Shown here: one piece after another, positions 22,675 to 29,016 of the stretch | Numbering within the stretch: position 1 is the stretch's first letter | Layout of the letters: each line of letters starts with the position of its first letter | NCBI GenBank assembly: GCA_903970555.1 | Contig: CAJCJD010000008.1 | Coordinates: 1-64,000 of the forward strand | Reading direction: 5' to 3' | Length of the DNA stretch: 64,000 nt | Source: Vulcanimicrobiota bacterium | GTDB lineage: Bacteria; Pseudomonadota; Gammaproteobacteria; Xanthomonadales; Rhodanobacteraceae | The notes under the pieces: model-generated | Told to the model about the DNA's origin: nothing | The model's input: the letters and a program-made list of their open reading frames with translations, nothing else | The model's database searches: none | Position numbers and translations under genes: made by a program

Positions 22675-25167
<2,493 letters not shown>

Positions 25168-26247
25168 TTATAGCAGGGGCGACACAGACCCCTGTTCCAC
25201 GTGGAACACTTTAGCTTGAGACGGCTGCAAGGGTCTCGGAATCTCAGTGCCGGTGACGAGCACCTGCGCCGGCGCAGCCAGCAGGGTGTCCACGACGGCT
25301 CGTTGATGGTCCAGATCGAGTTCAGAGGCCAAGTCATCGAGGCAGATGATTGGCCACTCTCCCCTCACCTCGGCATCTAGTCGAGCCTGGGCAAGCAGGC
25401 AGATCAAGGCGACCAGCTTCTCTTGCCCGCGGGAGAAGTGCTCCCGTTGCGGCGCCTGCACGAAGGACAGTGACCAATCGGCGCGGTGAACGCCTGATGT
25501 CGTGTGGCCTCTGCCTTGGTCGCGCATCCGTTGGGCACCAAGCACGCTAGCCAGATCCTCACCCTCAGCCCATCCCTGCCGGTAGCGCAGTTCGACGCCA
25601 CCGAGCTCCGGCAGCAATAGTTGGGCTTGGTTACGTAGATGAGGGAGCAATGCGTCGAAATACGAACGGCGCCATTGGTCAATCAAAGTGCCGCACCGGG
25701 CAAGCTCAAGTTCCCAGGGGGTAAAGAGCTCGTCGTCGGCAAAACCATCGGAGCGAAGCAAGCTGTTCCTCTGCTTTAACGCCCTCTGGTAGCGCCGCCA
25801 TATAGGCAGGAAATCCTGTTCCACGTGGAACACGCCCCAATCCAGGAAACGGCGGCGTTCATCCGCAGCCCCGGCGATCAACGCGTGCGATCCGGGTTCG
25901 AAGCAAACAACGGCGCATTCGCGGACAAGCTGACCGATCAAGACATCCTGTCCTTCCACCCGCGCCTCCCAACGAGCCCCTTCCCGGCCCAAGCCAAGCC
26001 GAACCAATCGATCATCTTCGTGGCGAACGGTTGAAAAAATGCTCAAGTCGGAAGCGCCACGCTGTAACAGCGCATCGCGAGCTCCGCTGCGAAACGAACG
26101 ACCATGCGAGAGCAAGAACGCCGCTTCCAGAACCGAGGTTTTGCCGGCGCCGTTTGCACCGGTCAACACATTGAACCCAGGGGCCAGATCCAGAGACATC
26201 TCGCGGATGCAACGCAATCCGCGTAGCTGAAAACGTTCCAGCCTCAC
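25168..26247 (-). CDS. recF: DNA replication/repair protein RecF
   Basis: 359 residues from GTG 26247 (first residues MRLERFQLRGLRC), which matches the usual RecF start and has GGGAG 10 bases upstream. A TTG at 26271 would lie inside a hairpin and is less likely. RecF is an SMC-like ATPase that helps load RecA at gaps. Walker A GANGAGKTS is near residue 35, and the Walker B and signature region lies in ICLDDLASELD near the C terminus. Two identical parS palindromes lie within the gene, each encoding the string FHVEQ. The first is near the middle and the second is the last part of the C-terminal tail. Confidence 0.93.
   Translation of the reverse strand: MRLERFQLRGLRCIREMSLDLAPGFNVLTGANGAGKTSVLEAAFLLSHGRSFRSGARDALLQRGASDLSIFSTVRHEDDRLVRLGLGREGARWEARVEGQDVLIGQLVRECAVVCFEPGSHALIAGAADERRRFLDWGVFHVEQDFLPIWRRYQRALKQRNSLLRSDGFADDELFTPWELELARCGTLIDQWRRSYFDALLPHLRNQAQLLLPELGGVELRYRQGWAEGEDLASVLGAQRMRDQGRGHTTSGVHRADWSLSFVQAPQREHFSRGQEKLVALICLLAQARLDAEVRGEWPIICLDDLASELDLDHQRAVVDTLLAAPAQVLVTGTEIPRPLQPSQAKVFHVEQGSVSPLL
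25193..25208. promoter_or_regulatory. parS site (ParB-binding palindrome) in the recF 3' end
   Basis: TGTTCCACGTGGAACA, a perfect 16-bp palindrome identical to the consensus used by chromosomal ParB of pseudomonads and relatives. It encodes the final FHVEQ of RecF, about 11 codons before the stop. Confidence 0.9.
25817..25832. promoter_or_regulatory. Second parS site inside recF
   Basis: The same perfect palindrome TGTTCCACGTGGAACA, 624 bases from the first. It is read in the same codon phase and also encodes FHVEQ (context GVFHVEQDF). Two sites at this spacing would allow ParB nucleation and spreading beside the origin. Confidence 0.9.
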
Positions 26248-26268
26248 GGTAAAGGAACTCCCAAACGA

Positions 26269-26297
26269 CAACGCCGGAGCTCAGGGCTCCGGCGTTG
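26269..26297 (-). terminator. Hairpin between dnaN and recF
   Basis: CAACGCCGGAGC (26269-26280) pairs perfectly over 12 bases with GCTCCGGCGTTG (26286-26297), with a 5-base loop. On the minus strand it is followed by TCGTTTGG, so it may act as a partial terminator or attenuator that lowers recF and gyrB readthrough from dnaN. Confidence 0.6.
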
Positions 26298-26335: not shown

Positions 26336-27436
26336 TCAGAGCCGCAACGGCATGATCACGTGACGCGACTGCTCGTTGTCGTCCTCTTGCACCAAGCAGC
26401 TGGATTGCGCATCGCGCAGGCTGAGTCGTGCCTTGTCACCACGCAAAGCCGCCAAGGCGTCGAGCAAGTAACCGACATTGAAGCCCACCGTCAGATCAGA
26501 AACATTGGTCTCGGCTTCGACTTCTTCGACCGCCTCTTCCTGTTCCGGGTTGTGCGCCACGATCCGCAGCTTGCCGGGTGAGAATTCCAGCTTCACGCCG
26601 CGATACTTCTCGTTGGAAAGAATCGCCGCACGCTGCAAGGCACCACGCAGTACTTCGCGATCGAGTGTCGCCCTTTTGTCAGCGCCTAGTGGAATGACCG
26701 CTTCGTAATCAGGGAAACGGCCATCGATCAGTTTTGAGGTGAAAACCACCTGTCCGCGACGAACGCGCAGATGGTTACGACCAAATTCGAGTTCGACCGT
26801 GCCATCACCGGATTCCAACAGGCCAACCAACTCATTGACGCCCTTACGCGGAATGATGATCTGACGGCGCGAGGAAACCTTGCTGTCCAGATGCGTTTCC
26901 TTCAACGCAAGTCGATGGCCATCCGTGGCAACGCAACGCAGCGCGTGCTCCTGAAGATCCAGCAGCATGCCGTTGAGGTAGTAGCGCACATCTTGGTTCG
27001 CCATCGCGAAGGATGTGCGATCCATCAGATCACGCAGCACTTCTTCGGGAAGGCTAACGCGCTCGACCAATTCGATCTCGTCGATGGTCGGAAACTCGGT
27101 TGCAGGCAACGTGGCAAGCGTGAAGCGGCTGCGACCTGCATTCAAAGCGACGCGATCGCCGTTCTGCTTCAGTTCGATCTTCGCGCCGTCGGGAAGTGCA
27201 CGCACGATGTCGAACAATTTGCGCGCTGGGATGGTGACTTCGCCATCGACCAATTTGTCGGCGTCGGTAGAAGCGACCATTTCGACTTCGAGGTCGGTGC
27301 CGGTGAAAGAGAGCTTGCCGTCGCTCACTTTGACCAAAAGGTTGGCGAGTACAGGCAGCGTCTGGCGACGTTCGACTACTCCGACGACCTGCTGCAAGGG
27401 TTTAAGCAGAGCTTCTCGTTGGATGCTGAATTGCAT
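26336..27436 (-). CDS. dnaN: DNA polymerase III beta clamp
   Basis: 366 residues, the usual length. The sliding clamp tethers polymerase III to DNA. Three repeated clamp domains can be followed: residues 1-120 (LVKVSDGKLSFTGTDLEVE), 128-245 (YYLNGMLLDL, ATDGHRLAL) and 246-366, ending in HVIMPLRL, the conserved C-terminal tail that forms part of the partner-peptide pocket. The start MQFSIQREALLKPL is typical. It lies between dnaA (246-base spacer) and recF. Confidence 0.97.
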   Translation of the reverse strand: MQFSIQREALLKPLQQVVGVVERRQTLPVLANLLVKVSDGKLSFTGTDLEVEMVASTDADKLVDGEVTIPARKLFDIVRALPDGAKIELKQNGDRVALNAGRSRFTLATLPATEFPTIDEIELVERVSLPEEVLRDLMDRTSFAMANQDVRYYLNGMLLDLQEHALRCVATDGHRLALKETHLDSKVSSRRQIIIPRKGVNELVGLLESGDGTVELEFGRNHLRVRRGQVVFTSKLIDGRFPDYEAVIPLGADKRATLDREVLRGALQRAAILSNEKYRGVKLEFSPGKLRIVAHNPEQEEAVEEVEAETNVSDLTVGFNVGYLLDALAALRGDKARLSLRDAQSSCLVQEDDNEQSRHVIMPLRL

Positions 27437-27681: not shown

Positions 27682-29016
27682 TCAACCGGTCAAGGTGCGG
27701 ATCAATTGCTCCCAGTCCTGCCGCATCCGGGTATCGGTCTCGCACAGCTTGCGGATGGTGCGGCAGGCATGCAGCACGGTCGTGTGATCGCGACCGCCGA
27801 AGGCCTCGCCGATCTCGGGCAAGCTGTGTTCGGTCAATTCTTTGGATAACGCCATCGCGATCTGCCGTGGGCGAGCCAACGAACGCACGCGACGTTTGGA
27901 AAGCAGATCCTGCAAGCGCACACCGAAATACTCGGCGACGATCTTCTGGATGTTCGGCACCGTCACCGCCTGTGCATGCGTGGCGAGCAGATCGCGCAAG
28001 GTTTCTTCTGCGAAATCGGTGGTGATCGGTTTGCCGTAGAAATTGGCGCGCGCGGCGAGCGTGTTGAGCGCGCCTTCCAGATCGCGCACGTTGGAGCGAA
28101 TGCGCTTGGCCAACAGCATCGCGACGTTCTCGCTCACCAGCACGCCCTTGTCGTGCGCTTTGGCTAGCAAGATCGCAGCACGCGTTTCGAAATCCGGCGG
28201 TTCAATGGCTACCGACAAACCCCAACCCAGACGCGACTTAAGGCGCGGCTCAAGTTTGTCCACTTCTTTCGGATAACGATCGCAGGTCAGGATGATCTGC
28301 TGTTTGGATTCGAACAACGCGTTGAAGGTGTGGAAGAACTCTTCCTGGGTGGTGTCTTTTCCCGCGAAAAACTGGATATCGTCGATCAGCAGCGCGTCCA
28401 CCGAACGGAAGCGGCGCTTGAATTCATCCATGCTCTTGGTGCGCAGCGCTTCGATCATCGAACCGACGAATTGCTCCGAGCGCAAATACATCACTTTGAA
28501 GTTCGGATTGTGTTCGCGCATCAAATTGCCGGCCGCATGCATCAAATGCGTCTTGCCCAGGCCGGTGCCGCCGTAAAGCAGCAACGGGTTGTAGGCACGG
28601 CCAGGATTCTGTGCAACCTGCATCGCCGCCGCTTTGCCCAACTGGTTAGACTTGCCCTCGACGAAGGTCTCGAAGGTGTAGTGCGGATCCAGGTTGTGGT
28701 TGAAATTGACCGCCACCGGCTCAGGTGCATTGGCCGGACGGGCCATCGACGGAGGCCGAAGATTAGGCACGGCCGCGGCGCTGGAACCGACCTCCAGCTT
28801 CACCGGCGTCTTGTGACCGTGAATAAGGGTAAGCACCGCCTCGATACGAGGCAGGTACCGCTCGCGAACAGCATCCAATGTGTAAGAGTTAGGCGCAAAA
28901 AGTTGTAGGCCGTCCGCATCGTCGCGTGCCTGCAAAGGCATCAGCCAGGTATGCAGGTCTTCGGCGCTCAACTCAGCTTCCAGACGCTCAAGACAGCGCC
29001 GCCACAAGTCACTCAT
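27682..29016 (-). CDS. dnaA: Chromosomal replication initiator DnaA
   Basis: 444 residues. Domain I (about 1-80) starts with [14 protein letters not shown]. The AAA+ domain has Walker [11 protein letters not shown] near 150 and Walker [10 protein letters not shown] near 212. The C-terminal DNA-binding domain IV holds the DnaA signature [15 protein letters not shown]. DnaA binds the 9-mer boxes at the origin and opens it. Boxes occur in the gaps on both sides of the gene, so it is probably autoregulated. It is read leftward and rpmH is read rightward. Confidence 0.97.

Follow-up and report, generated by a model that had tools for sequence, protein, structure and literature searches.

Why should a recF gene spell the same 16-bp palindrome twice, in the same reading frame, a few kilobases from dnaA? 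In the window, by which we mean the whole 64,000-nucleotide stretch analyzed here, TGTTCCACGTGGAACA occurs exactly at 25193-25208 and at 25817-25832, both times in frame within recF. The first-pass annotation had described these as two perfect parS palindromes sharing one codon phase and giving FHVEQ twice, a description confirmed at both coordinates: VFHVEQ is read from each site in the same phase, at residues 147-152 (site 1) and 355-360 (site 2), counted from the listed TTG start. The features of the locus are as follows.

22675-25092, reverse strand: gyrB, ORF downstream of recF (TIGR01059, 1008 bits)
25168-26271, reverse strand: recF, ORF hosting both sites (TIGR00611, 302 bits, cut-off 172)
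25193-25208, no strand: putative parS site 2, exact 16-bp palindrome, recF VFHVEQ 355-360, stop codon 22 bases on
25817-25832, no strand: putative parS site 1, exact 16-bp palindrome, recF VFHVEQ 147-152
26336-27436, reverse strand: dnaN (TIGR00663, 344 bits)
27682-29016, reverse strand: dnaA (TIGR00362, 559 bits)

For gyrB, whose listed ORF begins further upstream, the start was placed at the ATG of MNASYDSN. The gene order is dnaA-dnaN-recF-gyrB. The start of dnaA, taken here as the marker of origin proximity, is 3.2-3.8 kb away from the two sites.

The window holds two perfect copies of the 16-bp palindrome TGTTYCACGTGRAACA, and its identification as the parS consensus is borne out by the parS2 site of Pseudomonas aeruginosa, whose 16 bases are identical (PMC4368675; this and the other PMC papers are drawn on in part). 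No further copy of TGTTCCACGTGGAACA was found in the window at up to three mismatches, a threshold at which 100 shuffles averaged 0.24 matches and a single shuffle reached two. The whole-genome scan proposed in the first-pass annotation returned just the two recF copies, with no third at up to two mismatches in an assembly that is 91.7% complete in 247 contigs and may therefore lack other parS sites of the genome. Given the protein, the exact V-F-H-V-E codons have a probability of 0.057 per site and 0.003 for both, according to the codon usage of six other ORFs of the window.

The single ParB_N match of the assembly (E 5e-38) lies on contig C80, the window being on contig C8. It was identified by PF02195 and TIGR00180. 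The ORF upstream of parB is ParA-type, with a Walker motif KGGVGKTT, and is itself preceded by an RsmG/GidB-like ORF (both recognized by eye). The location of parB and the ParA-type ORF on C80 favors the earlier suggestion that parAB lies outside the window and that the sites would act in trans. In this context, we put forward that the two palindromes are a chromosomal parS centromere embedded in the codons of recF, served by ParB in trans and by a ParA that moves the origins, and constraining codons and residues; we give this reading a probability of about 95%. ParB made from the parAB locus would load on both recF sites and slide along the flanking DNA, over neighboring genes, and ParA would move the ParB-parS complex so that new origins separate. 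For this organism, we infer binding, spreading, and segregation from P. aeruginosa and general knowledge. With a centromere embedded in coding sequence, each 16-base site would have two readers, ParB for the DNA and the ribosome for the codons; ParB binding should therefore fix the synonymous codons CAC, GTG, and GAA and limit the RecF residues encoded there.

Distribution of the recF sites

The closest named RecF among the matches listed is that of Lysobacterales bin_18 (84% identity), followed by Dyella and Rhodanobacter, which makes Rhodanobacteraceae, within Gammaproteobacteria, the most likely family of the host. Within the family, 19 of 25 genomes (the window's own included) carry at least two exact copies, five carry one, and one carries none; listed pairs of copies are separated by 618-627 bases. 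A site with up to three mismatches is present at both positions in each of 80 named recF loci, the best 80 among the matches listed, in a set biased by this selection and by its retrieval partly through the peptide DWGVFHVE. In Mizugakiibacter sediminis, a third perfect parS (L030:4084-4099) is found approximately 30 bases beyond recF site 2.

A class sample of 219 genomes, drawn evenly, avoids the bias of the 80-locus set. TIGR00611 matched in 218 of these, above cut-off in 181 including the window's own; the other 180 recF genes were taken, and with two (L158, L163) outside the E 1e-20 limit, 178 were usable. At up to three mismatches and in frame, site 1 is present in 154/178 and site 2 in 146/177, the recF of G243 (L096) being cut off at a contig end so that its site 2 was not counted, and a displaced in-frame site of G190 being counted. 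Both sites are found in 135 of the 178 genes, one in 30, and none in 13. Site-negative genes are mostly far from the consensus, with at least seven mismatches in 20/24 (site 1) and 27/31 (site 2).

The core GTTYCACGTGRAAC is present in 187/219 genomes, most commonly in exactly two copies. A usable recF together with exactly two cores is found in 127 genomes, and in 108 of these both cores lie in recF; in other words, 108/178 genomes have no consensus parS core besides the two recF sites. Overall, recF accounts for 283 of the 349 exact cores in the 178 genomes. These counts suggest, at the level of sequence, that recF parS sites are common throughout the class Gammaproteobacteria. Neither recF site is intact in 16 of 251 ParB-positive genomes, and the recF location is thus not obligatory.

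Some genomes depart from this arrangement. In G254, G227, and G280, a pair of cores spaced by 31-41 bases lies at the recF end or just beyond it, and G266 has 12 core matches, the second-highest number among the 219 genomes being five. G198 and G336 (family f60; L220, L201) encode divergent ParB proteins (E about 1e-35 and 1e-34) and have a recF with no parS-like site in a genome with no consensus core; perhaps they use a different centromere sequence.

Codons, residues, and site centers in RecF

The codon test covered the 67 RecF columns in which a single residue accounts for 75% or more of the 178 genes, and compared the commonest codon with what the third-base frequencies of each gene would predict. 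The five most biased columns are V150, V358, H149, E151, and H357 (z 12.7 to 21). GTG is used in 149/152 genes at V150 and 142/149 at V358, CAC in 156/162 at H149 and 142/148 at H357, and GAA in 137/140 at E151; the E of site 2 falls outside the test, E/K variation leaving its column below 75%. The 60 columns outside the sites have a mean z of 3.2 and a maximum of 9.3, which shows that the codon model is itself inexact. No excess is seen at the F columns (z 1.0 and 1.3), where TTC and TTT are both freely used, in agreement with the tolerance of C or T at parS position 5. Among the 57 loci below 42% GC, CAC and GTG are each used in 45/49 at site 1, and in 39/41 and 36/41 at site 2, counts conditioned on a recognizable site.

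The residue that follows E/K is informative as well. With site 1 present it is H in 67 genes, P in 62, Q in 23, R in 4, and L in 1; with site 2 present it is H in 81, Q in 50, R in 15, and P in 1, with one gap. These residues share little chemistry, and the codons from which they are read here all start with C, the base required by parS.

The two sites also change in concert. We compared the central hexamer with CACGTG in 136 class genomes in which both sites are recognizable, leaving out G321 (no ParB) and incomplete genes: both centers are changed in 6, one in 5, and neither in 125 (Fisher p 2e-7). The six genomes with both centers changed represent six families. G314 has CACGTA at both sites and its congener G165, at 57% RecF identity, has CACGTG at both; in G173 and G246 the change of center turns V into M in both RecF motifs. 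Both the codon test of 178 recF genes and the co-variation of the two sites show selection acting on the DNA itself, over and above the protein.

Loci with a changed center at both recF sites include L137 (G246), L126 (G173), L197 (G314), L157 (G180), L217 (G328), and L231 (G153), as well as L027, L048, L060, and L079; the centers seen are CATATG, CACATG/CATGTG, or CACGTA/TACGTA. A matching change in the ParB recognition helix was sought by eye in 30 aligned ParB sequences, and the variant genomes displayed no consistent helix-turn-helix difference.

The proposal that the sites constrain codon choice in recF therefore holds, with H, V, and E codons nearly fixed as CAC, GTG, and GAA. It was right about codons and understated in scope, since amino acids seem to be limited as well and the sites are found across the class. 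Sites lost with the amino acids kept, the pattern that had been named as speaking against it, is the opposite of what the relatives show. We lean towards the wider interpretation that the FHV[EK][HQP] motifs of gammaproteobacterial RecF are kept for their parS-spelling codons and not for a need of RecF, that residues follow the changes of center, and that the centromere has been locked in recF since early in the class.

ParB loss and alternative explanations

A second sample covered the order around Enterovibrio (G370), which we take to be Enterobacterales, and comprised 109 genomes, 102 of them with recF, plus Escherichia coli K-12. A site was scored as intact when its core had at most one mismatch. 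Site 2 is intact in 73/81 genomes with a chromosomal-type ParB versus 2/22 with no ParB or a weak one, and site 1 in 35/81 versus 0/22, six weak-ParB genomes (E 5e-31 to 1e-4; 1e-34 in G395) being grouped with the ParB-less ones. G481 and G473 were assigned as ParB-less by elimination. E. coli K-12 has neither site; it was grouped as ParB-less after PMC4368675, though an E. coli control genome matches TIGR00180. Both sites are degraded in G321, which is assembled in one contig and gave no ParB match, whereas both cores are intact in the ParB-positive congener G176. Over both samples, an in-frame site is kept in 7/30 genomes with no or weak ParB, three of the seven being assemblies 77-95% complete (G363, G187, G280). 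In G279 (L139), which has no ParB match, a consensus core lies in recF off the aligned frame and a second core on another contig; a frameshift or an assembly error is a possible cause of the former.

On a RecF tree built without the site columns, only seven supported independent pairs were available, of which a mean of 2.5 agree with joint loss, almost none oppose, and 4.4 are alike; when site 2 is taken by itself, the means are 2.3 in agreement and 1.2 opposed. In these comparisons eight class genomes with no or weak ParB were grouped as ParB-less and G379, which shares its listed position with G288, was omitted. With so few losses the sign test does not reach significance, the median p being 0.25 when either site is counted and 1 for site 2. 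In ParB-less Enterobacterales, conservation at site 2 falls from 0.91 to 0.18 at H and from 0.94 to 0.50 at V, drops that come second and seventh among 98 columns; the largest drop is in a column outside the sites, and clade divergence thus contributes. An association between loss of ParB and loss of the recF sites is suggested by these sequences, the raw counts being strong and the independent losses few.

Could RecF simply need two FHVE motifs, the palindromes being a codon by-product in a GC-rich genome? FHV is indeed widespread at both positions (151/178 and 143/178), and F is kept in nearly all ParB-less genomes. However, H, V, and E keep almost a single codon each but F does not, V becomes M at both motif positions in G173 and G246, and none of three alignments to solved RecF chains has FHVE at site 1. 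The motif also drifts in ParB-less Enterobacterales, although columns unrelated to the sites drop too, one of them most of all. This protein-only constraint is contradicted by the codon data, and we give it next to no credence. It is also very improbable that the ParB-bound sites chiefly regulate dnaA-dnaN-recF-gyrB instead of acting as a centromere. An excess of ParB in P. aeruginosa reduces gyrB expression by about 2-fold, which the authors suggest reflects binding to parS1/parS2 (PMC5521831). However, according to the parts of that study used here, parB-null and parS-null strains show raised expression only near the intergenic parS3/parS4, the native ParB level having no effect near the intragenic parS1/parS2. 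The earlier idea that ParB spreading alters recF, gyrB, or dnaN expression thus finds no support at the native ParB level of P. aeruginosa.

A further alternative concerns the concerted change of centers only, a side finding, which might reflect avoidance of CACGTG under restriction-modification and not a shared ParB reader. Relative to the reversed control GTGCAC, CACGTG is scarce in G246 (35/142), G180 (20/85), and G153 (118/411), but not in G173 (222/236), G314 (198/139), G367 (998/1208), or G368 (1049/1220), and little so in G328 (271/374); the ratio in G369 (197/425) is no lower than in the unchanged G271 (317/636) and G254 (99/216). At most three AT-rich genomes among the 20 compared with this control fit, and we rejected such avoidance as a general cause; as an account of the concerted changes we regard it as unlikely.

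A parS centromere within recF would account for the many genomes in the class in which there are just two parS cores, spaced by about 0.6 kb. Conservation of a protein motif is commonly taken to reflect protein function; this motif of RecF, a widespread repair protein, seems better explained by an overlapping DNA-binding site, an overlap that matters for the reading of RecF alignments and for the design of recF mutants. The ParB-positive, ParB-less, and altered-site lineages offer a natural series in which to follow the joint change of parS and ParB.

Known parS systems

The parS sites of P. aeruginosa closest to oriC, at about 4 kb, are located in recF (PMC3909081) and are named parS1 and parS2 (PMC5521831), so that a recF-borne parS is already a known kind. 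There, one site from the set parS1-4, whichever it is, is both necessary and sufficient for segregation; parS1 and parS2 were among the sites tested by silent mutation, which weakens ParB binding (PMC4368675). Both window sites are perfect and match parS2, whereas parS1 has one mismatch; P. aeruginosa has in addition the strong parS3 and parS4 and six weaker sites (PMC4368675), whereas no site beyond the recF pair was found in the window's assembly. The counterpart of window site 1 in the Pseudomonas loci L072, L074, L081, and L082 is their site with one mismatch.

Xanthomonas citri belongs to the same order as the Rhodanobacteraceae. It has one parS, TGTTCCACGTGGAACG, 3 kb from the origin, which unlike those of the window lies at the 3' end of dnaN and has one mismatch to the perfect palindrome (PMC3937727). 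The parS bound by Spo0J of Bacillus subtilis is likewise a 16-base near-palindrome recognized by a ParB (PMC4368675); its arms are of the GTTTCAC/GTGAAA type, seen in other recF genes of the class but absent from the window. In Caulobacter, one of two hot spots that tolerate parS insertions spans recF and gyrB, but these are experimental insertions, the native parS cluster being elsewhere (PMC5815017).

In the partly covered literature on parS, recF, and ParB, native parS sites are placed in recF only by the P. aeruginosa papers, and we found neither the class-wide extent nor the RecF protein footprint in print, though the 2007 survey of Livny et al. could list recF sites widely. The comparison of genomes presented here suggests that what is new beyond P. 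aeruginosa is the breadth of recF-borne parS across the class, together with its footprint in the RecF protein.
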